Assembly: GCA_001414345.1 (NCBI GenBank)
Contig: LLCB01000263.1
Location: forward strand, 16,885 to 80,884
Source: Hymenoscyphus infarciens
Taxonomy: Eukaryota > Ascomycota > Leotiomycetes > Helotiales > Helotiaceae
Length of the DNA stretch: 64,000 nucleotides
Direction of reading: 5' to 3'
Shown: positions 5,082-45,974 of the stretch, in pieces
How positions within the stretch are numbered: position 1 is the stretch's first letter
How the letters are laid out: each line of letters starts with the position of its first letter
Position numbers and translations under genes: made by a program
Notes under the pieces: generated by a model
Seen by the model: only the letters and a program-made list of their open reading frames with translations
Database searches by the model: none
Told to the model about the DNA's origin: nothing

Positions 5082-5086
5082 AAGCA

Positions 5087-19448: not shown

Positions 19449-19937
19449 TTAGATAAATCTATATAGAATATATAGATATTTAATATATTTAATCTTTTTA
19501 AATCTATTAATACTCTTTTATACTAAATATTATAAATAAAGATCTAAAAGACATTAGATAGTTATAGTAGCTTAGCTACTATAACTCTTAGATAAATCTA
19601 TATAGAATATATAGATATTTATCTATTAATATTCTTTTATACTAAATATTATAAATAAAGGTCTAAAAGACGTTAGATAGTTATAGTAGCTTAACTACTA
19701 CTACTATTAGATAAATCTATTAATACTCTTTTATACTAAATATTATAAATAAAGTTCTAAAAGATATTAGATAGTTATAGTAGCTTAGCTACTACTACTA
19801 TTAGATAAATCTATATAGAATATATAGATATTTAATATATTTAATCTTTTTAAATCTATTAATACTCTTTTATACTAAATATTATAAATAAAGGTCTAAA
19901 AGATATTAGATAGTTATAGTAGCTTAGCTACTATAAC
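19449..19937. repeat. Tandem array (left part) of palindrome-bearing units
   Basis: About four units begin TTAGATAAATCTAT (19449, 19588, 19707, 19801) and are 94-139 bp long. Each contains the block 'tactcttttatactaaatat' (or a close variant) and ends in a palindrome AGTTATAGTAGC-tta-GCTACTATAACT or a variant. The array is cut by the copia element at 19938 and resumes at 26108. The last five bases (ATAAC, 19933-19937) are the copia target site. Confidence 0.8.
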
Positions 19938-20108
19938 TGTCGGTATAACTCAAGAGTAAGTAACTGCTCGGGATAGCGTACGTGGGAACACGTAACCTTC
20001 TCGCTTAAGAGCTACTTAAGTAGGCATCGTAGCTAGCTTTACTCGGTATATACGAATAATAATATAACTCTTTTTATATTACTTTTATAATTATAAGTTA
20101 TACTAATA
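19938..20108 (+). repeat. 5' LTR of the copia element
   Basis: 171-bp direct copy of 25937-26107. It differs chiefly by transitions and is preceded by TSD ATAAC. Confidence 0.85.
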
Positions 20109-23100
20109 CTAATTAGTAGACGTATAGATTAGATACTTAGTTACTTTATATATTTCTACTATAAGTATACTTATATAAAAGTAAACTCGATATTACTAGC
20201 AGACTTCTCTTTATAGATCGTAGTTCCTTCTACTATCTAAATTCATAATAATATACTATAAACGCTTCTTAATATAAGAAGCACCGATTACTAATACTAA
20301 CCTTCTATTATCTTCTAAGATAATTTATACTCTCTAAGACATCTATTTATCTAAAACCTAATATCTCTTTTACCTACTAAGTAAAGTATAAATAGACTTT
20401 TAATAATATCTATTAATTTAAGTAATAATAACACCTATAATATAATAGACTTACTAATATCGATTCTAACGATTTCAGAAGCTTTAACTTTAACACCGAC
20501 TTCGGCACTAAAATAGGCTCTAAAGCTAGTACTAAAGCCAAAGTTAATATAGATAGAAGAGATACTTTTTACTACTAAATAAGAAGAGGAGTATACTAAA
20601 GAAGAGAACAAAGACCTTCTTCTTTAGAACGAATTTCAAATAGACTTTAAAGAATAGAATTAAGATAAACTCGCTAAGATCTACTAGTCTATAAATACTA
20701 AGTTATACTAGATACTTTATAAAAGAGGTATATAAGTTAAGATAGATAGATATAAAATACTTATATCTTAAGTACTATATAACACTACTACTAAGGTTAA
20801 CTAAACTAAGTAGTTAGACGAAGAATTAAAAGCTATAGTATTAGAAGAAGCTAGTAGTAAAGTCTTTAGATCTTGTTATAAATATATAGTAGAATATGTT
20901 AAAAGATAATAAAAGCTATAGTAATAATAACTATAATAATAGTAACCTCTAGCTAAAAATATTACTTAAAACACCTAATCTAAGATAAAGGCTAGAGACG
21001 AAGCTTTAAAAGCATCTACTATATAATAATAATAATAATAACTAATATAATAACCGATACCTTCGACGACTTTAATTCTACTAACTAAAAGAAAAGACCT
21101 AAGCGATCTAGTATAACCTCTAATCTAATCTTTAAATCTACTAAAAGATAACTAGATCTTCTTCTTTATATTCTATTAATTTAGCGAAGATACTAGTAGT
21201 AACGATTTTAACGATACCTCTAAGTATCTAGAATATAATCGGCAATAGAATAAACTTAGTAGAAGACTACTAGTATAAATAAATATAGTATATTTCAAAC
21301 TAGAATTAACTTCTCAAAGTTTAAAGAGTTAAGACTACTCTTATATATTAGGCACTCTTATAAAAGTATATAAGGATAATTAAAAGTATAGTAGAAAAGA
21401 AGACAACTTTATAATTAAAGTTATAATATTTAAAAACATATATAAGAGAAGTAGAGTATTACTAACGATTTACTCTCTTATCTTTCTTACTATACTAAAA
21501 GGTAACGCTTTAAATTACTTTTATACTATACTTTTTAATAAATATAATAATTAATCTTTTAAAGTTTTATCTATATCTATATAATAATACTTTAAAGATA
21601 AACTTTATAAAAGAGGCTAATTATCTAAGTAAAATAATATTAATTTATAAGAGATAATATAAGTATCTAAAGTATTAATATTATAGTCTTTTAAGAATAT
21701 ATTATTAAGACTTAATTTACTAAGATTTTCTCTTTCTATAGACTTTTATACTAATAGTTAGTTTTTAAATAAGCTAATTTTAGTATATAAAAAGGTCCTA
21801 GATTATACTATTATAATATTAACCTTACTCTAAGACTCTTTAATTTCTAATACTATTACTCTTCTATAAAGTTTAATCTAATCCTATATAAAAGTCTATC
21901 TAAAAACAGTTATAAATAAAATTATAATAACTAAGAGATACTTCTATAAAAGTAGATAATATAATAGTATAAATAAATTTAGTAGTATAGATTAATATAA
22001 GAAGAAGAGGATATATTATATATATAAAAAGAATAATTATTTATCTTAGGATTATAGTTAAGAAGAGTAAGACTATTACTTTACTAAATAGACTAATAAG
22101 AATTCTAAATACTTTAAAGAAAAGCGAGATAAGTATACTAGAAAGGTATATAATATAAATATAGTATATACTTAAGATATCTAGAAGGAAAAGATATTAA
22201 AAATACTTTAAGCTATTACTCTATTAAAAGAAGATAGTTACTTATTAAATACTAGCTTAGATAACGAAGTTATTTATTATAATATTACTTCTATAAGATT
22301 TATTAACGATTTAAATACTAAATAACTTACTATAAATTTAATAAGTTTAGTATAAAAACACGCTATTAATAGATATATCTTATAAAACCTAAACGACTTA
22401 AATAACACTTCTAACGTTATATATAAATTTATAAAGAAGGTATTTATAATAATAGCTAAAAGATATATAAAAGAGAACTTCTTTAGTATAATAATTAATA
22501 CTAAAGTAGCTTAAAAGTTCAGTATAAGATATAACTAATATCTTATATATATTAGACTTATTAAAAGTATCTTAATTAATAAAGATATAAAGAGTTAATT
22601 TAATATCTAGTTTAGTAAGAGATATACTCTATCTTTAGAATTAATAATAATTGATATATTAATTAGAAAAGTAGAGTTTTATATAATATAATCTAATACT
22701 CCTTTTATCTTTTATATTAATAATATAAATAACTTAAATATTACTTTAAATAATCTTTAAAATATACTTATCTAAGAAAATAAAAAAGAGGTAGAAATTA
22801 AGAGGTTCTCTATTATATAACGATTTAGACACCCTTTTCTACTCTAGGATAAAGCTATATATAACTTTATATAAGAGTATTTGATATTTCTTATAAATAT
22901 TAATATTTAACGACTTTATAAATAATTTAGCTACTTATTAGTACTAAGATTATAACGTATATTAGAAAGAGCTAGGTATTATATTAACTAAGGCATCTTT
23001 TAATATCTTACTAAATTTTATAAATACTATTAAAAGTATAGAAGTTCGCCTAGCTAATTTAAGTTTACTCTTTATAATAACCTTAAATTTAATTATAGTA

Positions 23101-25936: not shown

Positions 25937-26107
25937 TGTTAGTATAACTTAAGAGTAAGTAACTGCTTAGAATAGCGCACGTAGGAACACGTAATCTTCT
26001 CGCTTAAGAGCTACTTAAGTAGGCATCGTAGCTAGCTTTACTCGGTATATACGAACGATAATATAACTCTTTTTATATCGCTTTTATAACTATAAGTTAT
26101 ACTAATA
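25937..26107 (+). repeat. 3' LTR of the copia element
   Basis: 171-bp direct copy of 19938-20108, followed by TSD ATAAC at 26108-26112. A purine-rich tract (agagaggtg) lies just upstream. Confidence 0.85.
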
Positions 26108-26515
26108 ATAACTCTTAGATAAATCTATATAGAATATATAGATATTTATATATTAATACTCTTTTATACTAAATATTATAAATAAAGGTCTAAAAGATAT
26201 TAGATAGTTATAATAGCTTATCTACTATAACTCTTAGATAAATCTATATAAAATATATAGATATTTAATATATTTAATCTTTTTAAATCTAGTAATCTCT
26301 TAATACTTTTATATACTAAATATTATAAAAAATATCTAAAAAACGTTAGATAGTTATAGTAGCTTAGCTACTACTACTATTATATAAATCTATATAGAAT
26401 ATATAGATATTTATTATCTTTTATCTTCTTAAATCTATTAATACTTTTATATACTAAATATTATAAATAAAGGTCTAAAAAACATTAGATACTTATATTC
26501 GCTTAGCTATTATAA
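26108..26515. repeat. Tandem array (right part)
   Basis: The same units as at 19449-19937 resume (about 26115, 26234 and 26380), with the 'tagttatagtagcttagcta' palindrome arms. This shows the copia element inserted into the array. Confidence 0.75.
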
Positions 26516-28226: not shown

Positions 28227-31200
28227 CTATGCTAGCCACTCCTTACACCACTTTTGTACCCACTCCGTCTTAATCGCCTCCACATTCTTCAACTTCTCAC
28301 TTACCCCAACTGTCTTGGCCACCTCAAAATCCGGAAGCTTACCCTCACCCAAAAGACTCTTATAAGTATCAAGCAACTTAACAGCCGGATTAACTTTGAC
28401 AATCTCCTCAATCTTCAATCCACTCGCTTCAGCATTATCAGAGACCCTCTTCAACCACTCTTCAAACGAAACAATCTCGAGTGAGGTCGAGCTCGAAGGA
28501 GCGATACTCTTTATGACTTGAGGAATGAGAGCCTCCCAAGTCGTCGTATTGGGATTGTGTGGGTGAAAAACAACTGCCTTTCCACCATCTCCCGTCTGGC
28601 TGGCTAGAGCTAAGTCCACGATTATATCCGCGAGCACATCAATAGGTAGCCAATCGATCTTCTCAAACCCACTACCAAGAGAATCAGGTAAAGCACCAAT
28701 ATACAATGAACTCAGCACAAGACTTGGAAACCACTCCCATTTATTCCACAAGCCTGCCAAAACAACCGGACCAGCGATTTGGCCTACGCGAGCGATACGA
28801 GTATCGATTTGTAGCTTCTCTGCTGCGTAATCGAGAAGGCGTTCGGCGACGTATTTACTTTGCCCATAACCCATTTTGATGGGTGCTGAGTGGTCTTTGA
28901 TGATTTCTTCCGGGATTTGGGTCGTTGTATCGGAAAGACCTCGAGCGGAGCTGATGGAGGAGACAAAGAAGATTGTGGGGTGGGAGGGAGCGTGGTTTGC
29001 GAATTTGGCAAAGTTGATCACGCCGTCGATTTGTTGTTCGAAGGAGGAAAGAGGGGTGTTGAAGTTTACGGACCAGCCGTTTAGGAATATCTTTGTGGTT
29101 GTTTGGAGGAGGGCATTGTAGGTTGATGGTTCAAGGCCGAAATTTTCTTTGGCCAAGTCGACTGTGTGGAAGGAGACTCTGTCGGTAGGGAAGTCGATTG
29201 GTAGTCCACGGGAGGCGTTTCGCTTGACTTGGACCTGTTGAGCATCGGGGCTTCTGTTAAAGCAGTATATGTGGGAGACCGAAGGAGTATTGAGAAGCGC
29301 AAGTAATAAGTATGAGCCCAAGCTTCCGGTGGATCCGGTAAGAATCACGGTTTGTTTATCGCTGGCGACTCCGTTTTGTCCATTTGTTGTTGGAGATGCA
29401 GCTGCAATATCGTCAATGACTTTGAATTTCTTGTCAAGTGTCTCGCTGATGGCACGCTTTCTTTCTTGTTCTGCTTGTTCTCCGGATTGTTTGATCTGTT
29501 GGGAGATATCCAGGACGGCTTGCGAAAGTTGTGCGATCGACGGGTTTGTGTACACGGTACTTGGGGCAATCTCTGGAAGTAGAAAAGCCTGCTTCATATC
29601 TCGCGTGAGAAGTAACGTTTGCAATGAGTCCATACCAACAACATAGAAATTGTCTGCATGGTCAATTTTCTCCCATCCAGTTTGAAACTTTACGAGCTTT
29701 TCCAAGATAGCACTGACACTCCCAAGTGTTAGTGGACCATCTATTGGTTTCACGTCAGGGTTTATTGATGATGACTTTAATTTTTCGGCATCGGCATATA
29801 ATGCTTCGAGTTCCGCTGCGTACATGGCCACTGTCAATGGTCTTTGAATCTGGAAAGGGATGAGCAAGTGATCGTAAAGGGTGTGTCCCACATCTGTGAG
29901 ATAGGGATTTTTGGGAAATTCACATACCGTTCCTTTGCCAGCTCTTCCCATAGGTCTTTTTGGATCTACTAAAAGTATGTGTGTCTTTGCGATTTTCGCA
30001 TGAGCTGGACAAAACTGGTTGGCTTCTTGGACCTTTGGCCAAATCCGCTCAATAACTGCCGCACGTTCTGAAGGGCCTAGCTCTTTTTCATCGATGAGCT
30101 CAATGAGCAAAGCCGCTTGGAACTTTTGAGCTCCAGTAACAAGAACTGCTTTAACTTCAGGATGGCTTGTGATTTGGTGCTCCATGGTCGTAGGATTTGT
30201 CTTCTCGCCTGTAAGGAACACGATAATGTCGTCACTTCTCCCGCCATAAGCCCAAAGATTGGGTTTGGTTGGATGAGGCGTATACATATCGCACTGAAAG
30301 TGTATTAGTTTAGAAAATCTTTTTTATTTTATGTGGAGAAAAAACTTACAGTGGAATACTCGGTAAGCTCGGGAAACAATTTAAAGATGGGCTGATGCTC
30401 TTCGATAGCTGGGTCACGTACCACCCACATTTCATAAAGATTCTCATTCAGATGTCGAAACTCGAGTCCAACATTTGGATGGAAATGCGTATAGTGCCAG
30501 TCCTCACGAACGAAATCGCCCTCAGGACGAAGTGAAGGCAGATTTCCAACCTCGGAAGCTCCATATATATCGACAAGGCGCATCTTTTTCGAGATGGCTT
30601 CTCCGAAAGGTTGAGGCAAATCCCCACCCGCAAAAATCATTGTATCCAACCGTGAAGAAACGAAATCAAGAGTCTCTGCATCCTTTGCGAGGTCAACTGC
30701 AGTTGGGGGCGCGATGAGGGCAGCATCTGCAATGGTGTGTTTTAGGCCATCGGCTAAGACCTTCGCAGATGGAATGGCAGACGCCAATGGGTAAATCCAT
30801 GCCGTTCTAGTGGCAATGGCCGCGCAGAGAGTTATCAGATGGTTTGCACCCTAAGTGAGATATAAGTAATTGAAGATAGACAGACTACTGAAGAGACTTA
30901 CGTGAAACGGAGGAAGCATGAAAAAGACCCGATTTGCTTGGACCAACCTATCGTTGCTCTCATCTGCAGGATCTCGGAGTCAATTTACTTCTTCGGAAAG
31001 ATTTGAGGAGTAGAAGGAGTAAGAGTTTCAAGGAAAGTTTAAGAATGAGGCATGTCTCAGCTCTGGTTTTTACCCAAAGAAGAAATTCACTCGGAGAAGC
31101 TGGGTACTCACATCCTGGTGGGGGATCAAGTTGAATCATGTTGAAGTAGGCAGCCGCATAATCATGATTCCATGTTACCGGTTTCGGAAGACCGGTTGAG

Positions 31201-31823
31201 CCTGACGTATGGAAAACGATAAGGGGGTCGAGTTTGGCTTGCTCAAAAGACTTGTTATAAGGATAAGGTGGGTATGTTTTAGTGAGAAGTTCATCAACAC
31301 TCGGTGCTTTTATAACTTTCAGAGGGAATACGGTAAGAATGGAAGGAATCGTTGCTGGTTGTGGATCTGGAACCAAGATTGTCTTGCAGTCAACAGCTTC
31401 GAGAAGATGGGTGTGAGCCGCAACACTGTTTCGGGGCGAGGAGAAGAACATCTATTCCAACTTTCAGCTGTATTCATATTCAGAATAGGAAATGGTGATT
31501 CGAACTTTATACCCCGCCTTTACGGCACCCAAGGCAAAAACGTTGTACCTCATATCATTGGGACCGATATATGCCAAAGTCTCAAAGTTATTGCCCGGCC
31601 CGAGGGTCTCGTGGAGGTACCATGCAGTGCCATTGATGGCATTTGCAAAGGTCTTGTAGTTGACTTTACGATATCCAGCATCGTAGGAGGTTGGTGAGAT
31701 GGGAAATTCCGCGTAGAGAGCTTGGGGTGTTTTGCGGGCTGTGAAGTCAACGATGTTGGTAAGAATATCCTTCTTTCCCGGATAGTATTCGGGAAGATTG
31801 CTTGGAGAGGTATTGTTTGCCAT
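28227..31823 (-). CDS. NRPS-like carboxylate reductase, A-T-R (1095 aa)
   Basis: Adenylate-forming reductase: it activates a carboxylic acid with ATP, loads it on its carrier domain and reduces it with NADPH. Exons: 31823-31506, 31451-31112, 30963-30902, 30850-30350 and 30293-28227, all in frame. The adenylation domain (about 1-560) has the phosphate-binding motif HTSGSTGLPKP (about 187-197) and YGASEVG. The carrier domain has GMDSLQT with the phosphopantetheine serine near residue 630. The thioester-reductase domain (about 722-1090) has the Rossmann motif TGSTGSLGS (about 726-734) and the catalytic Y...K in MGYGQSKYVAE (Tyr about 883, Lys about 887). There is no condensation domain, so it does not make peptides alone. 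The second intron (30964-31111) is an introner-like element shared with the PKS. The substrate is unknown; aryl acids or a polyketide acid are possible. Confidence 0.9.
30964..31111 (-). mobile_element. Introner-like element B3, an intron of the NRPS-like gene
   Basis: This 148-nt intron is homologous to the PKS introns at 37387-37490 and 38723-38890. Shared pieces are the GTG.GTA start, TCTCCGAGT, TTCTTTGGG, GAGACATG, AAATTG and the CTCCGAGATC end. Its ends form an inverted repeat of about 25 bp (plus-strand arms 30972-30996 and 31074-31097). It lies in the adenylation domain coding region, phase 1. Confidence 0.75.
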
Positions 31824-32658
31824 GATGCTGTAAGTGGTGGTGGATGTGGTGCTAAAAGGATAAGACTATTACTTTAAAGCTGGGAGGAAAATCTCTACAG
31901 TTGAGGTAGTTTGGGGAGGTGAATATCCCAACCCCTATCAACAAATCTCACTGCATCGATTACGTTGGAAGCTGGTCGAGTAGATGAGGGGAACCTTGGC
32001 CAACATTAAAAGTTCCTTTCAGCTGCAACATGGTTGGCATCCTTCAATTGCACCCCTGAATCGATTGGGGCAATTATCCAGAATTGTGGGGAGCCAGAGG
32101 GAGGTTGAGAGGAGTTTCGAGATTGTTGGTGTTGGTGTTGGTGTTGGTTGGTATGCGATCGCTCTTGCGAGGCGTGTACGTACTACCTATGGTCGGTCTC
32201 AAAACGGAATTGTGCTCCGAAAAACCTGCATGGTTCTTTTCATGCAGACCCTACCAGTTCAAACCATAATTCCCAAACGTGCATCAAGATAAGCATGAAA
32301 AAGGCACAGAAACTCTCCATTGGAGCCAACCGTTTGCGATGGTGCACTGCCCACTTCCACATGAGAAACATGGAGCCGAAAGTATTTTTGTCTTTGTATG
32401 CAAGAAAAAACCCCTCACAGGTGCATAGAGCCCCCGGGATACTCTCCTCAAAAGGGATATGGAAGAGAACCATGAAAGCATGTCGTTCCTTCCTCGGGGG
32501 GAGCCGTCTGCCATCTCATAAGCGAATTGTGAAGGAAGAATGGGTTCGGAAGGATAGCCCACGTAACGCTTCATAAGGTAATAGCAAGTCCATTTTATTC
32601 ATCGTACATCACACCAAATAACGCAAAACTTTGCTCTCAAAACCGTACGCTAGCAGCT
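31824..32658. other. Divergent promoter region
   Basis: Shared upstream region of the NRPS-like gene (minus) and the membrane-protein gene (plus). It contains a (GTTGGT)n-type microsatellite at about 32124-32150. Open frames on both strands here lack features. Confidence 0.5.
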
Positions 32659-33881
32659 ATGGCTTCTGCTCCCGCCCATCATGCAACAGGAGAATACCTC
32701 TACGAGTACCACGGGCTGAAGCTTGTTGTACTTGCCGCCTTTTTCATCCCGTTGGAGACAATTTTCGTCCTTCTGAGAACATGGTCGAGAGCTTTGTCTG
32801 ATGCGAAGATGGGGTTGGATGATCTTTTGATCTGGCCTTCATTGGTCTTTTGTCTTGCGATCAACATAATTGGATTTGGTATGAAATGGAAAGCCCCGGC
32901 GATGCAGTTGCTGTCACTGACACCAACGAAATAGTAATGGTAAATTATGGAGGCGTGGGACGCCATGTTTCGGCATTGGCAATGCTGGGAGAATCCCATA
33001 AGATTGTGATCTGGGCCAAACTTCTCCTGGCTGTACAGTGGATATACATAACAGCGGTTACGTTACCCAAGATCTGCGTGATAGTATTGTACCTTCGAAT
33101 CTTCACGCAGAAGGCCTACCGGACGACTTGTTACTTGTTGATTGCGGTCGTCATAGGCAACTTTCTGGCTGGTGGGCTGACCTCCAGCTTGAGTTGCATT
33201 CCTCTAGCAAAGTTTTGGAACAAGAGTCTCCCGGGACATTGCATTGATACCAATGCCTTCTTCCGATGGATTAGCTTTCCAAACATTTTGACTGATGTTG
33301 GCATCTTGGTCCTTCCACTGCCACTCATATACGGCCTCCACTCGACCAAGAACCAGAAGTTGGGCTTGGTAGTGACCTTTTTGACGGGGAGCACGTATGT
33401 TCCCTTTCCGGTTCATCTACCGAATAGTTACTAACTCTCTTGCAGTGGCTTGATCGTTTCCATCATTCGATTTGCAACGTTCTTTGGGAAGGACGCACTC
33501 GAAGACGCAACTATGGCGTCCGCGGACTTGATGTTGTGGACCATCATCGAGCCAGGAATGTATCTTATTGCAGCATGTTTGGTTACCATGCGTCCCTTGA
33601 TTCGACACCTGCGACACGGAAGTGCGTTAGGAACATATACTACCCAAAAGTCACGGTCCCGCGGATATAAAATCTCCTCTTCGGGAAACCATGATGTGCC
33701 ACTCGCTTCGATGGAACCTCGGATCAATGTTGCCCCTGAGGTTGAAGAGCATGGAGGCAATTACAAAAACAGTGCTGCATGCATGGCGAGTCCGAAAGAT
33801 AGGACTGTGTTTGGAAAGCACCAGATTGTCGTCAAGCAAGATTACGAGGTCTCCCTAGCAGCACGTCAGCCCGCTCGATGA
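32659..33881 (+). CDS. Fungal rhodopsin-domain integral membrane protein (371 aa)
   Basis: Exons 32659-32878, 32935-33394 and 33446-33881; both introns are GT-AG (56 and 51 nt). Seven hydrophobic segments can be picked out, for example LKLVVLAAFFIPLETIFVLL, LLIWPSLVFCLAINIIGFV, LLLAVQWIYITAVTLPKICV, LLIAVVIGNFLAGGL, ILTDVGILVLPLPLIYGL, LGLVVTFLTGSTGLIVS and LWTIIEPGMYLIAACLVTM. This is the layout of the fungus-specific rhodopsin-domain/SAT5-like family, whose members are frequent in ascomycete metabolite clusters and resemble PTH11 receptors without a CFEM domain. The last ~90 residues are cytoplasmic and polar. It may be a sensor or carrier-like protein. Its position between the NRPS-like gene and the hydrolase suggests membership of the locus. 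The ligand is unknown. Confidence 0.85.
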
Positions 33882-33966
33882 GACAGACATACGATTTTGG
33901 GTCGATCGATAGATCGCAGGCAGGTAGGCAGGGGTTTCTGACTGTGGATATTGAAGAAGGGTCTTA

Positions 33967-34150
33967 TACTATCCCCCCCCTAATTACATTTTATGCGCAC
34001 AGACATTTGCTATACTAAATGTCTGTGCACCCTACATTCTGTTTAGGGGGAGGGGGAGAGTACTACCCCCCCTAATTACATTTTATGCGCACAGACATTT
34101 GCTATACTAAAACGACCGTGCGCATACAATGTAATTAGGGGGGGTAGTAC
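33967..34150. repeat. Tandem pair of C-run palindromic elements (MITE-like)
   Basis: The block 'taattacattttatgcgcac' preceded by a run of 7-8 C occurs at about 33972 and 34066. The second copy (34061-34150) is a near-perfect palindrome: TACTACCCCCCCTAATTACA at the left is answered at the right by TGTAATTAGGGGGGGTAGTA. The first copy (33967-34062) has the same left arm but a degraded right arm ending in a G-rich run. It lies 85 bp downstream of the membrane-protein gene and may form strong hairpins. Confidence 0.75.
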
Positions 34151-35221
34151 TCGTATATTGTAAACACCCCCAAGAGAATCCAAGAAATCAGTGGCAGTAA
34201 ATGTGAACCGATATGGGCTGTTCCCGAGGAATCCTTCGCGACCTACAAGCATCGAACTAGTCCCAGATAAGGTCGAATGCCGGCTGAGACGGAAACATAC
34301 TCCGTAGTACCTGGTACTGATACGGTATATAGTACGTATGTTGGTAGATTATGGTACAGAACTGAACATCCCGTACCAAAGAGGGAAGGAGCCGCGGCGG
34401 TGCGGCACGGACCGGTTGAATAGAAGAGAATTCCATTACCCCATGCGAGATTCTCCTAATTCCACCGAGATTCAACTGGTGACGGGATTGGTCGACTAAG
34501 CGCAGTCATGTGCTTGGCTTCAACGGGCATCTCCGCTTTTTGACAGTTTGACATAAAACGCACATCACCTCGGATCAGATCACATCAAAAACGTTCCCCC
34601 AGATGTACGAACCCAATCCTCCCATTTGTCGCCTGCTTGTTTACGTAAAGCTGAGACCAACCACTTCTCAACTATAACGCAATCCAACATGTAACGGCAC
34701 CGTGTCGCCGGTGGATTAAACTGTCGGATGATCGATGTCTTCGTATTGGCAAGTATGGCGACTCCCCCACCATCTTCTGCCTCCTTTTCGGAGCCCATTG
34801 AGCTCTTCCTTTCACGCCAAGTAGCTCAGTCCCACTATTGGATCCAGCATGACCGTAGAGTCGAGTTATCCTCAACGGTAGTAGACGGGTAATAACGGGT
34901 AACAATCATTTACGAGATAGTCCACATGATATATCTGCTGCTAACTACCCTTAGACTTCTCCCGAAGACTGCTTCTGCCCTCTCCGCCTTCCCCGTCCCT
35001 ATGTAAGGCTGTGTGTGGCCAACCTCGCAATGGGCAACAAAAGCGGCAGTAAACAGGAGCAGCTCTCATTGTTCGTACTTTCTAGTAGAATTTAACAAAT
35101 AATACCCCAAACAAACCAAGACGACTGAACATGCTTGTTCTCAATATTTGGGTCAATATATCAAAATTCTCCTAGAAATTTAGAAAAAGGAGAGCCACCA
35201 CCTGCCCCTTACCATTTCACC
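34151..35221. other. Intergenic, no gene seen
   Basis: About 1.07 kb of normal composition downstream of both flanking genes. Minus-strand open frames around 34580-34905 have no recognisable motifs. I cannot support a gene. Confidence 0.45.
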
Positions 35222-36086
35222 CTACAAGCGCCCCCTGCAGAGAAGCTGCTCATCTTCAGCCAAGCAGATCGCTCTTTTGACGATGTGTGCCGCCTTGGTA
35301 ACTGCGTCCCTTGACCTGGAGCTACTGGGGATCTCATGTCCTCCTTGATGGACATAAATGGATCTGTTCTCTTCCTTGCACATGTCTGCTAATATTTCCG
35401 CTTTGCCTTGCCATTCGTCATTGGAACCCCAGATATGAGCAGTAGGGATCTCGATCCTTTTTTGACCTGTCGGAAGCTCCAACAATTCGACAGCGCCATT
35501 TTCCTGCTTCAGATCTTCATGGAACGGCACCATTGCGGACAAGAAAATTGCACATCTAAACGGCGCCGCGTTCATACCGTTGGATGCACCTCGAAGTATC
35601 AACGTTGCAGCCAAGCCAGCCCCGGCGGAGAAGCCGATAATTCCTCCAAAAGGCCCTTCGGTGGCAATATAATTCTCCAGGTCAGCCAACGCGGTGGCGA
35701 GATTTCCTGTTCTGGCGGGGTCGAAATAGGAAAAGTATTCGTCTTCAGCCGGAAAGAGATGTTTAATGCCTGCGGAAAATCAGTGGACTTCCCTTCCAAC
35801 ACTGTGCCTTACAGCAATCAACATACCTGGTTCGGCCTCGACCAGGAAGGAGCCTTCTGCAAAGTCATACGTGTGCTTTCCTCCAATCTCATTTCTCAAC
35901 GTTGCTTCGATATGTCAACCGACGAGATTTACCAAAATGAGACATTTTCTGCCATTATCACCTACCAATTTGCATTTCGAGAACCTGTAATATTTTCTCA
36001 AGTTAGTACTGATTTCTTTCAATGGTTTCATGTCTGGAAAGTACCTTGTTGCTGGTGCCATTGCCATGGAGACATAAGAAGTGCAT
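35222..36086 (-). CDS. FSH1-type serine hydrolase (228 aa)
   Basis: Alpha/beta hydrolase of the fungal FSH1 family; relatives in polyketide clusters release or edit PKS products. Exons: 36086-36045, 35984-35966, 35904-35827 and 35769-35222, with introns of 57-61 nt. The start is the family hallmark MHFLCLHGNGTSNK, then VLEMQIG and GGKHTYDFAEG. The nucleophile elbow is GFSAGAG (about 97). A strand-turn segment TAHIWGSNDEW (about 157) probably carries the acid residue, and HQGGHEIPS (about 190) carries the catalytic histidine. The triad is therefore complete by eye. It is divergent from the PKS, sharing a 721-bp promoter region, which supports co-regulation. A role as the off-loading thioesterase for a PKS without its own release domain is inferred. 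Confidence 0.9.
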
Positions 36087-36807
36087 GTCGTTCTGGTGTA
36101 GAAGTATGTTGATTCTTAAAGTTGATTGTCTATCATTGGATATCTGGGCCTTCTTCTGGACACTTTCTACTTATGTAGTAGCACTTTGTCCAACAGTTTC
36201 GAGTCAACCATTGTGGTAGTCCCATTGGTACTTTTAAGCTAGTCCCGATAGAAACAGAAGTTTTGAACAAATCAGGTTTAGCTTGTGGATTCTCAACGGC
36301 AGTTGGGCTCTGTGATGGGCTGTTGACCTATCTATGCACAGCTTACGAGCACGAGCGGCACGGTAGATAAGACCCATACTTCGGACACTTCATTGCGCAA
36401 GCTCTCAAGTCATCACCGATCCCATCTTTGACGACACTTGACTGGACTACGATGTGCGACCCGTAGGCAAGGAGTCCTTCCTAAACCGTCTTCTCGACCG
36501 AAGAGCCCTTATTGACGGTGTGGGATTGCTCCAAGCTCCTTTAGCGTCATTTTGTCCTTTTGGACTTACAACTCTTCTTCAAGCTGCTTTAAGTGTGCAT
36601 TCTCCAAGTCCAATTTGTGATATTGTCTTCAACATAAATTGTCGTCTGTAAGAAAAAAAAAAATCCTTAATGCCATCAAGTCGGTGGCGTTCGAATTCTT
36701 AGGCGGACACATCGAGGAAGCTTTCTATTTGGTTTGGTCGACCCTATATAATTTCTTGAACCCAAGTAGAAGAATACACTGTATGCCAAGCAAATCGAAG
36801 TGCAGCC
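36087..36807. promoter_or_regulatory. Bidirectional promoter of hydrolase and PKS
   Basis: 721 bp separate the two divergent start codons. A TATA-type box precedes the PKS. No palindromic CGG-type site stood out to me as clearly as needed to call a Zn2Cys6 binding site. Confidence 0.5.
36745..36751 (+). promoter_or_regulatory. TATA box of the PKS gene
   Basis: TATATAA lies 57 bp upstream of the PKS ATG (36808), a normal ascomycete spacing. Confidence 0.5.
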
Positions 36808-39800
36808 ATGGATTCCTCACCTATTCCCGACGACTTGGAGTCAATCGCTATTATTGGCATGGCACTGAAGTTCCCTCAAGAGGCAACCTCTACAGAATCT
36901 TTTTGGGATACTTTGCTAGAAGGAAGATGTCTTTCAACCAAAATACCCCCCGAGAGAATGGAAGCCACCTCATTCTATCACCAGGACAAAACAAGAACAG
37001 ACACAGTAAGCACCCCAATACAGAAGACGATTGATCGCGCTGACAAGAAAACAGCTCAATGGCCTTAGTGGTCACTTCATAAAAGAAGATATTGCTGCTT
37101 TTGATGCACCATTCTTTTCTATATCTGCAACGGAGGCTGCCGGCTTGGACCCCCAACAACGACTCTTGTTGGAAGCGAGTTATAGAGCACTTGAAAGTGG
37201 TATGCTGTCTCTGTTGAGCGACTACTATCAAGACTAATTTGGTTAGCTGGGATCCCCATAGATGAGATCTCACATTCAAAAACGTCAGTGTATTCTGCAT
37301 CCTTTACCGACGACTACAAGAGTATCAACGCGAAAGACCCCGAGAATGGTTCGAGTTATGGCGCAAATGGCTTGTCCCCGAATATGGTGGGTATTCTCCG
37401 AGTTCTTTTTCCCTCTTTGGGAGGAATGAGACATGGTTTCCTTAGGCATACTTCTTAAATTGGCAATACTAACTCCGAGATCTTCCATAGCTGGCGAATC
37501 GAATTAGTTGGTTCTACAACCTCCATGGTGCCTCGTTCAATGTCGATTCGGCGTGTTCCAGTAGTTTGATGGCATTGGATGTTGCATGCCAAGGACTGAG
37601 AAACGGAGATGCAACCATGGTAAAGCACATTCTGAAACCCTTTGTACACCTCTAACTATTGCCCAGAGTCTCGTTGCTGGCAGTAATCTGATCCTTAATA
37701 TCGATTGGATGCTACTTCTTTCGAAAATGAGTTTTCTATCACCAGACGGGAAATGCTTCAGTTTTGACGAACGCGGGAATGGTTATGGAAGAGGCGAGGG
37801 CGTGAGCGTCATTGTCCTCAAACGAGTGTCGGACGCAATCCGTGACGGAGACAACATTCGTGCTGTGATACGTTCTTGTGGGTCAAACTCTGATGGGAGA
37901 ACTGCTCAAATCACACAGCCGAGCCCAGAAGCACAAGAAAGCTTGATAAGGGAGACTTATGCTAAGGCAAACCTGGACATGTCTGTTACGAGATTTATGG
38001 AAGCGCACGGCACTGGCACTGCTGTAGGAGGTACGTATTGAACTATTCCTACTACAAACAGATTATGATGTTCATATGGACAATTAGACCCCATCGAGGC
38101 GCATGCAATAGGCGCTTGCTTTAGAAAGTTTCGCAGTCCTGAAGAGCCGTTGTACATGTAAGTAGCTCCATTCGGTTCGTGGGTAAGAATCCTGAGCTTT
38201 GCTCTGCGTACACCCCCTTCATTAGTATCCCTGGAACTCTTCTACAATCTAAAGCATGATGCGAGAGCGGCTAGAAGAATTAAGAAGTCGATTTCTCGAT
38301 TCTTCTATACCGGGTCGGACAACAGATAATATTGTCCTAGACCCTTTCGCGCAATATTTACGAAAGCGAGTGTACTCAGCGGAAAGCCTGTCTCTCTTAC
38401 TATACTAATAGAGCACAATTTTAGTGGGGCGGTGAAGTCCATAATCGGACATTTGGAAGGATGCAGTGGTCTTGGTGGAATAATAAAGACAGTGCTCATC
38501 CTTGAGAATGGGTTGATAACACCAAACGCCAACTTCGAGAAATTGAACACCAAAATCGACCATGAATTCCAGAACCTTGAGGTATGCTTGGCCAGAACGG
38601 ACTCCCTTTCACTACTCATACTTAATAATGGAGAACAGTTTCCCATTGAAGTAACTGCTTGGCCTAGTGATGGTCTACGTCGCGCCTCGGTTAATTCCTT
38701 CGGATTTGGTGGCTCAAATAGTGTGGGTAATCTCTGAGTTCTATTTTCCTCTTTCAGGTTGTTATAGGAGGATTGAGACACCGTTTCCTCCTCAGACAAC
38801 TTACATCTTCCTCTCGTAACTCTGTTTTATCCTCCTTTTCCTCAAACATACCTCTAGAAATGGCAATACTGACCCCGAGAGCATCCACAGCATGCTGTTT
38901 TAGGTACGTTGTTCGTCTCGTGGAGTTTTTGAAATCTGAAGTTAATAGCACTACTTGTTAGACGATGCTTTCCACTACCTCCAAGCTCGAAATTTACTGG
39001 GCAACCATCAGACCGTTGCCCATCCTCCCAACCTATGCACACCAAAGTCACCCGCCAACTCTGATGAGGGATATAATACACAAAGCTCGGAGAGTGACTC
39101 ATCACCCTCCGAGACTAATCGCCCTCTCCTGTTGACTTGGTCGGCGATTGATGAGAAGGCTCTGAATACTGTTACGGATCAGTATGAGCACCTCACATAC
39201 AAGAAATTCTCCATCTTGATGGAAGTCGACAATCAATTCAGGAACTTAGCTTATACTTTGAATTCAAGGCGAACAAAGTTTCAATGCCGAACCTGGGCGC
39301 TGATGAATTCGGTTCGTGAAATGAATGGGCTCCAAACCCATCTTTCCCCAAAGCAAACATGTGTTTCCGAACCTCGGCTGGGATTTGTTTTCACAGGACA
39401 AGGAGCTCAGTGGTTTGCTATGGGTAGAGAATTATTGTCATTTCCAGTATTCGAAGACTCTCTTCTACAGTTTTCAGAACACCTTCAGGATATTGGTTGT
39501 CAATGGTCGTTGATGGGTAAGTGATGGACCTTCTCTTGATTGTCACAACTGACCTTTTTAGATGAGCTTCTTCGAGACAAGTTGACTTCTTCAATCAGTC
39601 AACCAGAATTCAGCCAGCCTATTTGCACTGCTATCCAAATCGCGGTAGTGGCTTTGTTGAGGCACTTCGGTGTCACCCCCACTGCCGTGGTTGGTCATTC
39701 CAGTGGGGAGATCGCTTCTGCGTAAGTTTAACTTTCTTTACGATATAGGATGTTCAGCACAATTTTGGTATTGCCCCAAATACTTTAGAGCAATGAAACA

Positions 39801-42800
39801 TGGTTGTTCCAAACACATAGGGTAATATCTTGAATTGTATTAAGTATTTAGGATAATTTACATACGTTACCCTAGAATGTTGGGACAATGAGCTAGATGG
39901 GCAGGTACGAACCCGAAGTGTTTATCGCTAAATCATTCCAGGTATACCATAGGCGCTATTTCAGCAAAGACGGCTTGTCGTATTTCATACTTCCGAGGTC
40001 TTCTGTCGTCGCAGCTCGCTGCTTCAAGCAGAGAAGACCGGGGAGCTATGATGGCTGTCGGTATTTCTGAAGAGCAAGTTTTGCCATACTTCCAACTCGT
40101 TTTCAAAGAAACCAATCGACAAAGTCTCACCGTTGCTTGTGTGAATAGTCCGAAAAGTACTACAATATCGGGAAAGAAAGCCGATATCATTTTTTTAAAG
40201 CAGTTACTGGACGAAGACGCTATTTTCGCTCGTGTACTAGATGTCCCAGTTGCTTATCATTCCCCGATGATGAACGCCATCGCAGATGAATATCTGGGCC
40301 TTCTCGACAACTTAGAATCCGATGAAATTAAGCCAAAATCAGGCGTGGACATGATATCTTCGCTGACAGGATCGCGAGTTTCTCCCCAGGAATTATCTTG
40401 TGGAAAGTATTGGGTTGCAAATATGGTTTCACCGGTCAATTTTGCAAAGGCGCTCACAAAATTCCGTATCAATACCGGTAAAATAAGAAAGAAGCTCAAT
40501 GGCAGTCACCGAGATCTCGCGTATGTCAATGACTTACTAGAAATTGGACCACATTCTGCATTACAAGGACCCATAAGAGACACCCTTGTGACACAAGGTA
40601 AAAGTAGCAGTATACGCTACTTCTCTGCTTTGGTTCGGAATCACAGCGCCATGACGACAACTTTGACAGCTATGGGAAATCTCCACTCTCTGGGATATCC
40701 CATCAATTTACTTCGTGTAAATCAGATGGAACATTGTACGGATTTAAAGCCTCTTGTCGACCTCCCAGAATACCCGTTCGACCACTCAAAGTCTTACTGG
40801 TCCGAATCGCGCTTGAGTCAAGGTTTACGGCTTAGAAAAGTCGCTAAAAACGATCTCCTTGGGACACCCGTAGCCGACTGGAATCCCAATGAAGCTAGGT
40901 GGAGGAATTTTGTTAAAGTATCGGAGTTACCATGGGTAATGGACCACAAAGTCGGCGGTTCAACGCTGTATCCAGCTGCCGGAATGTTGTGCATGGCAAT
41001 TGAAGCTGCCAATCAATTGGCCGATCGCTCTCGCCTTGTCAAAGGCTTTTGTATCAAGGATGCAACCTTCATTGCTCCAATGACAATTCCAACCACCCCC
41101 GAAGGTCTAGAAACACAATGCTTTCTTCATCCCCTTGAGCAGATTACAGCCACTTCAACTACTTGGTATGAGTTCAGAATATCTACCTTCGTTGGACATT
41201 GGACTGAGGTCTGTCGTGGAAACATACAAGTCGAATACAAGTTGCCTGCTGGAGAGTTATCATCTTGGCAAAAGAGTAAGAACCTAGGCTTTACTCTGCG
41301 TACACCCTCCTCCCATTGCTCCAGAATTCTGACACAATTTCAACTATTGTGCGAGAGTATTTAGAAGAATTGAGACTAGTGTTCTTGCTTCTTCTAAACG
41401 TTCTCAGAGAATGAATGTCATTGTTCTAAACGTTTTCGCACATTACTTACAAAAAGGCAGGTGTACCCAGAGGAAAGACTGCCTCTCTTACTTCTACCAA
41501 CCAACAAGCACATCTAGAAGATTTTGAAAACATGAAGAGTCTCTGTCCTAACACTATCATTCCAAAAAACATGTTTAATTTCTTGCGGGAAGCTGGTTAT
41601 GATTATGGGAAAGCCTTCCAGCGTTTTGCAGATATTCTAGCTGGTGAGGATTATGTCGCCACGGCGGGTATCAATATCTATCAAGATTACCTAGAACCAC
41701 ACATCATCCATCCCACTACTTTGGATGGTATTTTTCAGCTTGCATTTGCTGCTTTGACGAATGGATGTCAAGACAAACTTGACTTGGGCCTCCCAACTCG
41801 AGTGAATAGCATGTGGATATCGAGAAAGGGGATGAGCAATGACGAGAAATCCCTCAAAGCAACCGCTCGTGCTCATCCAGATGGCCGCATCACAGAAAGC
41901 ACTTTGAGAGTATTGGATGAAGAGGCGCAAACCTTGCTCCTGCGGATTGATGGTCTAGAAATGACCAACATATCCCAAACTCTCTCGGCAGAAGCGGAAC
42001 CAGCACCACAACTTTGCTGTGGGGTAGCTTGGAAGCCGGACCTCGACCTTCTTAGTCAGACGGAACTCTTACAATTCTGCCAGGAGATCCCGAAAGATGA
42101 TGAACCAATTGAATTCTTTCACGACCTCAATATATTGCTTCATGCCTCGATGCAGAGAAGTCTATCTTCGCCGCCTTCGGATCTCGACCCCACAAGACCT
42201 CATCTACAAAGATATCAAGAGTGGATGGCCAAGGTAGTAAAATCGTTCCAAGAAACTTCGACACCAGCCAAGATTGCTGTCTGGAATGAACTTGTCAATG
42301 ACAAACTCTTATTCAAACAGGCTTGTGATCGTATACGAAATACCAATAGACAAGGTCCACTTTACGTTGCGGTCGTCGAGGCACTGGATGGTATCATCAA
42401 TGGGAAAGTTGATATCCTCTCCCTTCTTTTCAATGGTACTCTAGCCACCGAATTTTACGAGGATATGAATGAAAGCGCAAATTGCATGCAGCAGTTCGCC
42501 AGATACCTCGATGCGGCCATTCACAAGAACCCAGGTATGAAAATTCTCGAGATCGGCGCTGGAACAGGTGGAACCACGGAGATGATCATGCGAACATTGG
42601 TTTCTGAAGACCGAGAAAGACGTTACGACACCTACGATTTTACAGATATCTCAGCCTCTTTCTTCGAGAAGGCTCGTGAGAAGTTTGAAAGATGTACGAA
42701 TATGAATTTCAAAACGTTCAACATTGAGGTTGCTCCCGAGAGTCAGGGATTCGAGGACGAATCGTATGATCTTATCATTGCTGCAAATGTGTTGCATGCT

Positions 42801-45800
42801 ACCAAGGATATCAGTGCTACGATTCGTAATACCAGGAACTTGTTGAAGCCAGGTGGGAAATTGATGCTTTATGAGGTCACCAGTCCTGAGACTATTTATG
42901 CTAATTTCGTATTTGGGTTATTGCCTGGTTGGTGGCTGGGTGTTGAGGAGTTCCGTCAGTGGAGTCCCTTCATTACCACTGAGAGGTGGAACGGCGTTTT
43001 GAGAGACCAAGGGTTCAGTGGGGCTGATCTCATTCTTTCTGACTATGAGAATGCTGAGTGTCGCTCGTGTAGTGTGATCGTCACGACAGCTACTGGCGGC
43101 GAGGATAGGATCGTATTCCCAGAACTTATTTTGGTGCTTCCCGATACACCCTCCAAGAACGAAGAAGCTGTTGCGGCCGAAATCGAGACTGTGTTGAAGA
43201 CTAATGGGTGTCCCAGTTGCGAAAGCAAAAAGATTTCCGATCTCGCGCTGGGAAACAATCAAACTGGCTTGTACCACATCTTTCTTGTCGATCTTGAAAA
43301 TTCACACCTTTCATCACTCAGTTCGGAACATCTGAAGGCATTACAATGGACGTGTGGTGCGAGCAAAGGTATACTTTGGGTTAGCGACAACGAAAGTCCA
43401 GACCACGCCATAGTAGATGGCCTTTCGAAGACAGTGCGAAATGAATTCTTGGGATTGAATTTCAGCACTTTGGCCTTAGAGAAGCCCGGCATCAACAAAT
43501 GCTTAACCGCGAAAACGGTTCTTGATGTTCTTCGCGCGACATTGCTTCAGGAAAGCGATATTGGCGAGTTGACCTTTATTCAAAAGAATGGAAGACTTCA
43601 AATACCGCGTTTGGTGGAAGCAAATCGACTTAGTTTGGATATCAACAATAAGTCACTTGTGAGGAGCAAAACAATCAAGGGGCTGGACACTTGTCCTCCA
43701 CTTAAGCTAGTTATGGGATCCACTGGTCAAGTGGACTCCATGTGCTTTGTTGAAGACTCGGGATTCGCCAAGCCTCTTCAAGAAGGCGAAGTCGAGATTG
43801 AAGTCAAGGCTATTGGTGTCAATTCAAAAGACAAACATATTGCCTTTGGGAAGGAGCGTGGGATACTTTGCGGTTCCGAAATTTCCGGAATTGTCAGTCA
43901 GGTTGGTGTCAACTGTGTATTTCAACTTGGCGATCGTGTTTGCGGGAATGTGGAACATGCTTTCAAGAATTTTGCCAGATCAAAGACCGCTACGCTTCTT
44001 CTAATACCTGATGGCATGAATTTCGTTGAGGCAGCCTCCTGGCCATCAGCATTTGGAACCGCATATCACTCTTTGGTTCATATTGCCCGGATTGAGCGTG
44101 ACGAGACCGTGCTCATTCATTCCGGGGCATACCCTGTTGGTCGAGCCTCCATCCAGATTGCCCTTGCACATGGGGCTATCGTCTTCACCACCGTTGCCAC
44201 AGAGGATGAAAGGACCCTTCTCCGAGAGCAATATGAGCTTCCGGAAGAGCATATTCTCTTCAACGGAGATACATCCTTTGTCACTGGTATCCGACAAGCT
44301 ACACGAGGAGAAGGAGCCGATGTGATTCTCAACTCACTAACTGGCGAGAAACAACTTTCGTCTCTAGAAAGTATCAAACCCCATGGTCGATTCGTGGAGA
44401 TTGGTAACCAGAATATACAATCCCATAAGCAGCTTCCCATGTTTGCTTTTGCCAAAAACCTCACCTTTAGCGCTGTGGATTATACTTCTTTGATTAAGGA
44501 ACGACCACTTCTTGTTCGGAAAGCTCTACAGGGGGTGTTGGATCTTTTCGAAAAGAAGGAAATTCAGTTGGGGAAAGATTTATCTATTTACAAACTGTCG
44601 GAAATCAAGAAGGCCTTTTTGGGGGTTGCGTTGGAGCAATTTGATAACACAAAGACCGTGGTAGAGATTGAAAGAAGCGACAAGGTTGAGGTTTGTACTC
44701 GGGTTCTCTTTGTGTGGTGCTTGGCTGACTTACCATCAGGTTGAATTTGATACTAAACCTAGTTTCCGATTCAAGGAAGATAGGACATATGTTATTGCAG
44801 GCGGTCTCGGTGGGGTTGGTAGATCAATGGCTCGTTGGTTTGTGTCTAACGGGGCGAGAAATCTTATCTTGCTCTCTCGGTCAGGCGCAGCTTCATCAGA
44901 AGCAAAAATACTGATCGAAGAACTAAAGAAGAAGAGTGTAAATGTCCAAACCCCGGCTTGCGATATCTCCGATCCATCTGCGTTGGAGTTGGTCTTGGAA
45001 GCCTGTAGACTCTCACTCCCTCCAATCGCTGGGTGCATCCAGAGTTCCATGGTTTTAAGAGTAAGAGTCTTCTTCAAAGGTTCACTTATAAAGCATCATC
45101 ATGCTAACGAACAAAGGACGCTTTATTCCAAAATATGACCCACGAAGACTGGACATCAGCTATCAAACCCAAAGTCCAAGGATCGTGGAACTTGCATTCT
45201 ATCCTCCCCAAAGACCTTGATTTCTTTATTGTGTTGTCGTCGCTGGCGGGAATAGTAGGAAGTGCAGGGCAAGCAAACTACGCTGCTGGGAATAACTATG
45301 AAGATGCGCTTGCTCGATTCCGGATCTCAAGGGGTCTAAAAGCCGTATCAATCGATCTCGGGGCCATGTTGACCAGCGGAGCTTTAAGCGAGAACCCGGA
45401 CTTGATGGATAAATGGGTTGGTGAAACCCCATTTATTCCCATTACAGACGCGAACCTTTTCGCTATTCTGGATTATTACTGCAACCCCGAACTCCCAATT
45501 CTATCAGAATCAACCTGCCAAGTAGCAGTAGGTCTTGAAAATCCAGCCAACCTCCAAAATCGAGGTATCGACCAGCCTCCATGGATGGCACGTTCCCTCT
45601 TCAAACATCTTCACCAGTTTCCTGGTTCTTCTTCAACTTCCGAATTTTCGCAAAATCCCAAGAGTGGGAAAACCGTAGACGTCACCAGTACATTCAAGAG
45701 CGCAGCAACTTTATGGGAAGCCGGTGCGATTGTCACAAAAGCCCTTGCTGATAAACTGGGAAACAATATAAGTGGAGGCGAAATCGACATTGAGAAACCC

Positions 45801-45974
45801 CTGGTGCAGTATGGTGTTGATAGTTTGCTGGTAGTGGAATTAAGAAGTTGGATCATGGGAAGGTTTGGAGCTGATGTGCAAGGCTTTGAGATCTTGGGCG
45901 GTGCAAGTTGTATTGAGGTTGGACTCGTGGTTGCGAGAAAGAGTAAGATTGGGAAGGAGACGTGGGTTAGTTAA
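36808..45974 (+). CDS. Highly reducing polyketide synthase, KS-AT-DH-cMeT-ER-KR-ACP (2569 aa)
   Basis: Iterative type I PKS. Exons: 36808-37005, 37055-37199, 37247-37386, 37491-37619, 37667-38030, 38088-38157, 38425-38581, 38639-38722, 38891-38903, 38962-39516, 39562-39721, 39942-41275, 41509-44690, 44740-45060 and 45117-45974; the frame is kept throughout. KS (about 1-435): DSACSSS cysteine, EAHGTGT histidine. AT (about 570-890): GHSSGE serine near 666. DH: H in [12 protein letters not shown] (about 1007), D in HPTTLDG (about 1189). cMe[11 protein letters not shown] (about 1464). ER (about 1855-2170): its cofactor motif is HSGAYPVG instead of the usual A.AGGVG. KR: GGLGGVG (about 2198), tyrosine in GQANYAAGN (about 2339). 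ACP: GVDSLL serine near 2520. No release domain. Five introns are long (104-267 nt) and four of these form two homologous pairs. The KS is cut into nine exons. The last ER-KR splice (44691-44739) is the least certain. Confidence 0.93.
37387..37490 (+). mobile_element. Introner-like element B1, intron 3 of the PKS
   Basis: 104-nt intron in the KS region, phase 0, starting GTGGGTATTCTCCGAGTT and ending CTCCGAGATCTTCCATAG. Arms 37395-37412 and 37462-37480 are inverted repeats (TCTCCGAGTT... against TCTCGGAGTT...). It is homologous to 38723-38890 and to 30964-31111. Confidence 0.75.
38158..38424 (+). mobile_element. Introner-like element A1, intron 6 of the PKS
   Basis: 267-nt intron in the KS region. 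From about 38181 to 38400 it aligns with the intron at 41276-41508: shared CTCTGCGTACACCC, GCGAGAG, TAGAAGAATT, TTCTTCTA and CTGTCTCTCTTACT. Inverted arms are 38197-38214 and 38368-38386. An inner palindrome TAGAAGAAT...ATTCTTCTA lies between them. Confidence 0.72.
38723..38890 (+). mobile_element. Introner-like element B2, intron 8 of the PKS
   Basis: 168-nt intron, phase 0, starting GTGGGTAATCTCTGAGTT and ending ACCCCGAGAGCATCCACAG, homologous to B1 and B3. Arms 38731-38748 and 38862-38880 are inverted. A 13-nt exon (38891-38903) follows immediately. Confidence 0.75.
39722..39941 (+). mobile_element. Possible introner-like element C, intron 11 of the PKS
   Basis: 220-nt intron directly after the [10 protein letters not shown] codons of the AT. 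Internal arms ATTGCCCCAAATACTTTAG (about 39768-39786) and the complement of CTAGAATGTTGGGACAAT (about 39872-39889) form an imperfect inverted repeat. A second pair, GGGTAAT/GTTACCC, nests inside. It has a piece (AATGAAACATGGTT) resembling the B family. Membership is uncertain. Confidence 0.45.
41276..41508 (+). mobile_element. Introner-like element A2, intron 12 of the PKS
   Basis: 233-nt intron in the DH region, phase 1. Terminal arms CTTTACTCTGCGTACACC (41289-41306) and GGTGTACCCAGAGGAAAG (41460-41477) are inverted repeats, 16 of 18 matching. Further inward pairs (TGTGCGAGAG / TTTTCGCACA and TAGAAGAA / TTCTTCTA) make the whole intron one long imperfect hairpin. Homologous to 38158-38424. 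Confidence 0.75.

Follow-up and report, generated by a model that had tools for sequence, protein, structure and literature searches.

The window analysed here, a stretch of 64,000 nucleotides (nt) within the 65.6 Mb, 742-contig genome of the ascomycete Hymenoscyphus infarciens, contains three predicted introns, termed A, B and C. They are copies of a single introner-like family, which has two sub-types, numbers about 230 copies or more and is likely to be spreading by way of spliced-out intron RNA. The birth of new spliceosomal introns is an old open question, copying being known but unexplained. As far as our literature search shows, the family places intron birth by copying in a new fungal group, the Leotiomycetes; no earlier introner report was found for Hymenoscyphus or the Leotiomycetes, supplementary species tables lying outside that search. 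In this one genome the family, some 230 related copies or more, comprises two sub-types whose stems differ, shortened copies close to ordinary intron size, and copies holding a foreign insert, so that models of intron birth by RNA copying, by DNA transposition and by break repair lead to differing expectations, open to checking in related strains. The three introns and their parts are as follows, in positions of the window.

30964..31111, minus strand: intron A, an A sub-type copy of 148 nt, at a phase 1 site in the AMP-binding domain of a nonribosomal peptide synthetase (NRPS)-like gene
31073..31102, minus strand: 5' arm of the intron A inverted repeat (consensus-structure columns 10-40)
30967..30997, minus strand: 3' arm of the intron A inverted repeat
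37387..37490, plus strand: intron B, a shortened C sub-type copy of 104 nt, phase 0, in the ketosynthase domain of a highly reducing polyketide synthase (PKS)
37469..37473, plus strand: the sequence CTAAC, predicted branch site of intron B
38723..38890, plus strand: intron C, a full-length C sub-type copy of 168 nt, phase 0, at the end of the ketosynthase domain of the same PKS
38723..38755, plus strand: 5' arm of the terminal stem predicted for intron C, from the donor G onward
38857..38888, plus strand: 3' arm of that stem, stopping 2 nt short of the intron end and leaving an AG overhang
38869..38873, plus strand: the sequence CTGAC, predicted branch site of intron C

Membership and size of the family

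All three introns have GT...AG ends at the coordinates listed above. In searches of their own genome at an expect value (E) of 1e-3 or less, with self-matches included, intron C had at least 41 matches, intron A at least 33 and intron B at least nine, and E-values between copies reached 1e-38 over 150+ bases in the intron C search; none of the three introns retrieved another of the three in these single-intron searches. The three are connected through profiles. A profile of 17 A-type copies, in which window intron C was not included, matches intron C over positions 15-153 of 158 (E 1.1e-5), and a profile of 35 C-type copies, in which intron B was not included, matches intron B as two pieces (E 1.8e-10 and 2.3e-10) and intron A at E 0.006. 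At the level of such profiles it holds that introns A, B and C are one introner-like family with two sub-types, and the initial annotation, made from the letters of the window, was right to group them, their similarity being far above chance.

Its expectation of further genomic copies was also borne out. A C-type 3'-end pattern of 20 bases, with up to three mismatches allowed, occurs at 168 places in the genome (reversed control, two), an A-type 3'-end pattern of 23 bases at 68 places (reversed control, none), and the corresponding 5'-end patterns at 115 places for the C type (control, two) and 26 for the A type (control, one). Pairing of the ends, which took 100 of the 168, 100 of the 115, 66 of the 68 and all 26 places and excluded two A-list places judged to be C-type, gave at least 233 distinct copies among the matches listed, 157 C-type and 76 A-type, a count from which the roughly five chance matches indicated by the controls are not subtracted. 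The size of the family in the genome would on these grounds be about 230 copies or more. A capture-recapture estimate for the C-type ends, at one mismatch or fewer, came to about 155-158 copies; it lies under the 168 direct matches and was not used as a total. Viral contigs gave no exact match to the 20-base C-type pattern.

Reading of the window and of 120 further stretches of the genome, 121 sequences in all, yielded 131 elements. Both profile ends are matched by 112 of them, and the 104 that have GT and YAG at those ends make up the set referred to below as full-length; the other 27 were set aside, eight having both ends with the GT or YAG pattern absent and 19 matching at one end or in the middle only. 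The C-type consensus runs from GTGGGTATTCTCCGAGTT to GGCAATACTGACTCCGAGATCNTCCNCAG and the A-type consensus from GTGAGTACCCAGNTTCTCTGAGTAAAT to AAGAAGTATACTGACTCCGAGATNCTGTAG. Full-length copies have a median length of 157.5 nt (range 104-434), and identity to the nearest neighbour is 82-95 % among C-type copies (median 87 %) and 81-90 % among A-type copies (median 85 %). The gain of these introns had been described as recent; with C-type neighbours at the identities just given, the gain stands and the word recent applies in part. Intron B is, from its two-piece match, a C-type copy with its middle missing, and copies of about 50-100 nt, such as those in loci L043, L098 and L095, suggest the same shrinking toward ordinary intron size. 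That size had been put at 45-60 nt for these genes, in agreement with a scan of 36806-40000 that gave stretches of 49, 47 and 45 nt, along with two candidates, of 117 and 41 nt, which overlap each other and probably belong to coding sequence.

Splice sites, coding context and insertion sites

The elements appear to bring their own splice sites with them, as had been proposed, since GT and YAG stand at the profile ends in 104 of 112 copies. CTRAY is present within the last 45 nt of 95 of the 104 full-length copies; the window introns have CTAAC, which we take to be the fungal branch-site consensus, in B and CTGAC in C. The tests of coding context, of target-site duplication and of inverted repeats were run on the full-length set. 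When the element is removed, the joined frame is open at ±60 nt in 94 of the 104 copies, compared with 56 % of 544 random positions, and separately called exon frames agree in 71 copies, compared with 27 % in the control. The sense strand codes better in 85 copies and the antisense strand in 19 at ±60 nt (control, 64 % sense), and the split at ±90 nt is 88:16. These results suggest that the copies are mostly sense-strand introns in coding sequence, their splicing itself being predicted. A reading of the elements as [D1,2] sister stwintrons (spliceosomal twin introns), nested pairs in which one-step removal would leave behind an extra G and put the frame out of register, was considered and rejected, because one-step removal preserves the frame in most copies: exon frames stay in register in 74 of 104 and are shifted by one in 19 and by two in 11.

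What is shared between copies ends where the intron ends. In seven close pairs, for example L106 and L045 (94 % identity over 159 bp), the blastn match passes the intron by a few bases at most, and with the introns masked the same seven pairs showed no flank match at E<=0.01 by blastn or tblastx. Target-site duplications did not emerge among the 104 copies, in which 3-nt repeats were seen once (1.8 expected) and repeats of 4 nt or more not at all, nor did any duplication stand out over 1183 registers, the top z of 3.4 coming from two cases with 0.13 expected. Microhomology at the junctions was likewise nowhere clearly over expectation, 3-nt matches numbering two (0.9 expected) and one (0.9 expected). 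In 19 close pairs flank identity is raised at -2, -4 and -6; as the pairs reuse the same few copies, no inference is drawn from this.

Exon pieces beside 95 of the 104 copies have matches to 40 Pfam families in all. HET is the commonest of the 25 families listed, with three members, and transporters, glycosyl hydrolase 28, tyrosinase and PKS domains are represented too; the 95 host exon peptides include five related pairs, one of which consists of two overlapping stretches of a single locus. Two inferences of the initial annotation, that introns had been gained by copying and that they are introner-like, accord with the finding of many similar introns in mostly unrelated genes, with ends that are splice sites and with the intron as the copied unit. 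Its further suggestion, that the elements had been seeded across a secondary-metabolite cluster, turns out to describe nothing special, given that host exons span many families genome-wide.

Copies are crowded within some genes. Among the copies listed (n=233), ten pairs lie 1 kb or less apart with 0.82 expected under uniform placement, an expectation that ignores the restriction of copies to genes and that, by our estimate, might be about three times higher if this were allowed for; all ten are on the same strand, and six of the ten mix C and A sub-types. Within 3 kb there are 13 pairs (2.5 expected; 12 on the same strand) and within 5 kb there are 19 (4.1 expected; 15 on the same strand). 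Two or more copies are found in six of 60 stretches of 3-4 kb.

Candidate empty sites come from paralogues. There are 41 ketosynthase matches in the genome, 17 of which span PF00109 position 152/153, the site of intron B, directly after which the PF00109 match in the window gene resumes at position 153. Twelve of the 17 run through the site without a stop (C293, C237, C292, C732, C246, C492, C719, C46, C736, C170, C133 and C117), and five hold stops inside (C113, C25, C24, C241 and C739). Probably a close paralogue of the window PKS, C117 has exon limits near 56, 105 and 196/197, as in the window gene, with an extra one near 168, and is without intron B. At the site of intron C, the equivalent motif is read through in open frame at two of three fetched paralogue loci (L118 and L113) and was not found at the third, L114. 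For the site of intron A, an AMP-binding family search scored 14 of 76 candidates, with the window gene missing from its list, and is given no weight. By parsimony from these paralogues we infer intron gain at site B and, weakly, at site C.

Inverted repeats and the route of copying

Terminal inverted repeats, ascribed to each of the three introns by the initial annotation, are real at the level of the consensus, the arms aligning over about 48 nt in the C type (shuffle p 0.005) and over 26 nt in the A type (shuffle p 0.001). Single copies are worn, with an inverted repeat at p<0.05 in 19 of 82 C-type and seven of 22 A-type copies. For fold statistics copies longer than 200 nt were omitted, which kept 79 of the 82 and 20 of the 22. 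Predicted pairs between the first 40 and last 45 bases of C-type copies average 19.5 (n=79), compared with 4.9 in 790 dinucleotide shuffles, and 71 of the 79 have at least 12 terminal pairs, compared with 15 % of shuffles and 16 % of 165 random genomic 160-mers. The A-type mean is 11.9 (6.2 in shuffles), with at least 12 pairs in ten of 20 copies (21 % of shuffles); mean fold z is -1.43 for the C type and -0.92 for the A type. In the C alignment, 33 of the 34 rows that have letters show the donor G paired to the third-last base, so that folding of a C-type intron would leave AG as a 2-nt overhang. Conservation is higher in the arms (0.87) than in the interior (0.82), a difference that splice signals alone could cause.

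We favour copying through RNA since it is the intron that is copied, insertion duplicates no bases, most copies are oriented with their gene and some genes have been entered more than once. In outline, intron RNA would be spliced out of a host transcript, and the excised RNA, probably held together by its end-to-end hairpin, would be the form that is copied. Transcription would expose the target, for example through R-loops and reverse splicing or through a break in which the RNA is caught, and the intron RNA would be inserted sense-wise into the coding DNA of transcribed genes and reverse transcribed to DNA. The stem may aid this copying.

A number of observations pull the other way. Eight of the 112 copies with both profile ends miss the GT or YAG pattern, and coding is better on the antisense strand in 19 of the 104 full-length copies; with a score above 5 at ±60 nt, six are antisense and 27 sense. 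With longer frames, six doubtful copies divide into four with the longer frame in sense and two with it in antisense (L094 and one in L022). Three copies are closed at ±45 nt, among them window intron C, in its case because the next exon is only 14 nt long and is followed by another intron. The control for coding flanks was drawn from the same gene-rich loci, and sense placement could also come from the purging of antisense or badly spliced insertions. A weak flank bias in the 104 copies (44 have A at -3 and 40 have G at -1) points to some preference, which selection on splicing would also give. As to the stem, the arms are without covariation, pairing being 85.8 % in C-type copies and 85.8 % when shuffled, and 85.0 % and 85.6 %, respectively, in the A type; the extent of terminal pairing shows no correlation with divergence (rho 0.11, p 0.33; n=77 copies); and RNAalifold gives four and zero pairs, the terminal stem being absent. 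With no covariation and no link with divergence, parent copies seem to be where the symmetry comes from, and there is no apparent sign that the stem is maintained after insertion, in a test whose power low divergence limits; compensatory change being lacking, a role for the stem in copying is left without direct support. The RNA intermediate, the transcript and the insertion event are all postulated, none having been seen.

Among other explanations, the initial annotation suggested a DNA-transposon route. In the form weighed here, a non-autonomous element resembling a miniature inverted-repeat transposable element (MITE) would have terminal inverted repeats and both splice sites, a transposase encoded elsewhere and insertions outside sense-coding positions that were lost or missed. 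Inverted repeats in both consensus sequences and multiplication to about 230 or more copies speak for it, and other eukaryotes do have introners of DNA type that bear repeats of this kind (PMC9860276). Over the 1183 registers, though, no duplication stands out, and the sense strand is favoured. At 20 loci picked by their 5' end, moreover, the profile 3' end lies within 500 bases downstream in 19, the twentieth matching to profile position 140, so that these loci gave no sign of a longer element sharing the ends. For lack of duplications in the 104 copies, and in view of the mostly sense-coding placement and with no longer element met within the 500 bases at the 20 loci, this route is rejected as the best reading and we consider it quite unlikely.

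Capture at double-strand breaks in transcribed genes, of intron DNA or of intron RNA as a patch and with no spliceosome step, seems to us doubtful. Seamless ends without duplication and clustering in certain genes fit capture at fragile transcribed sites, and Fekete et al. (2025; PMC12403724) propose capture of intron RNA at breaks. The shared sequence nevertheless stops at the splice sites, which DNA-only capture does not predict and capture of spliced RNA does, and neither junction has microhomology clearly above expectation. It is scarcely credible, finally, that these are ordinary unrelated introns made alike by shared splice signals and by chance alignment of pyrimidine-rich sequence: branch-site and splice-site motifs do belong to the conserved blocks, but E-values reach 1e-38 over 150+ bases, the pattern count of 168 compares with two in the control, and the cross-sub-type profile match extends across most of the intron. 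Copying of spliced-out intron RNA is the explanation that we prefer to these three.

Cargo, known introners and host genes

Some copies of the family carry foreign sequence. The A-type copies in L071 (about 430 nt) and L110 (about 405 nt), which are in different genes, have the same insert of about 270 nt in the same place, shorter in L110 and with GTAAATCC on both sides. The two introns are 81 % identical over 441 columns (blastn) and their flanks are without a match. The insert is a dispersed repeat with 41 matches including these two, and one further match sits between both A-type ends at C69:275972-276332. On the simplest reading, one introner was invaded by a mobile element and subsequent copying took intron and insert together. 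A dispersed palindromic repeat was noticed in L071 (2140-2405), in L110 and between the ends of the C69 copy (276067-276193), and, by eye, in the C-type copy of L064.

A more specific form of RNA copying, put forward tentatively and in our judgement improbable, is that the element is a hairpin-RNA intron parasite. A hairpin with a 2-nt 3' overhang is the geometry of a mirtron, and a debranched C-type intron would be such an end-to-end hairpin with a 2-nt AG 3' overhang. This would be the protected form that is copied, would carry transposon cargo to a new gene and would hit the same few transcribed genes repeatedly, with selection for the hairpin acting at copying and not after insertion.

Introner-like elements of fungi are reported to have been described from the Dothideomycetes by van der Burgt in 2012, and DNA-transposon introners are said to have been treated by Huff et al. 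in 2016. With the former the present family shares hundreds of look-alike introns, spliceosomal by prediction here, that are longer than regular ones, occupy unrelated genes and decay to ordinary introns; it differs in the class of fungus, and the likeness is drawn from descriptions, not sequences. With the latter it shares multi-copy introns and, in some of those families, inverted repeats, whereas many of the DNA-transposon introners come with target-site duplications or take a splice site from these. Collemare et al. (2015; PMC4457414) dealt with the introner-like elements of Dothideomycetes and their decay. In their survey of introners across eukaryotes, Gozashti et al. (2022; PMC9860276) treat the ascomycete families as an outlier without inverted repeats or duplications; compared with that outlier, the family here has inverted repeats and is without duplications.

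The nearest likeness is to the sister introns of the Hypoxylaceae, for which Fekete et al. (2021; PMC8469720) describe inverted repeats of 45-55 nt and seamless sites free of duplications, the introns functioning only on the coding strand. Imperfect terminal inverted repeats (about 48 nt here, in the C consensus), seamless sites with no target-site duplication, coding-strand function (predicted, in the present family) and some multi-copy genes are common to both. Short near-terminal stems are recorded for Xylariales by Fekete et al. in PMC12403724. The Hypoxylon palindrome WTTCTAGAAA, of 10 nt, resembles CTTCTAGAAA in the C-type 3' arm at nine of ten positions, which may reflect distant kinship, the families being compared by description only. 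Unlike the Hypoxylaceae introns, those here are canonical one-step introns with two sub-types, about 230 or more copies, repeat-carrying copies and a Hymenoscyphus-like genome as host. Judged by these features the family belongs to the fungal introner-like elements. Its cargo-bearing copies and its crowding within genes go beyond the descriptions cited here, barring three Hypoxylon EC38 genes with two copies each that are mentioned for the Hypoxylaceae introns.

The host genes of the three window introns are the following.

28227..30323, minus strand: 3' part of the NRPS-like gene, host of intron A, with an AMP-binding C-terminal domain, a carrier protein and a Male-sterility-type reductase
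36808..45974, plus strand: highly reducing PKS, host of introns B and C, limits approximate

The PKS has ketosynthase, acyltransferase, dehydratase, methyltransferase, zinc-binding dehydrogenase, ketoreductase and carrier-protein domains. With the PKS part at 41430-44741 a metagenome protein (P0001) shares 93 % identity over 96 % of that part, so that public data may include a close relative of the fungus. For RNA polymerase I subunit 2 of this genome, the closest named match comes from Hymenoscyphus albidus (96 % identity), followed by Glarea lozoyensis (89 %), in keeping with a Hymenoscyphus-like fungus of the Helotiales, Leotiomycetes. Elsewhere in the window, 33974-34150 is a MITE-like repeat with two exact 46-nt copies 92 bases apart and poly-C ends, its inverted partners having been recognized by eye, and the introner copy L042 holds a hairpin insert with C-rich ends like those of this repeat. 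Further direct repeats of 180-260 nt in the window are found at 19396-20120 and 25937-26515, at 769-1030 and 63539-63800, and at 428-617 and 4895-5084.

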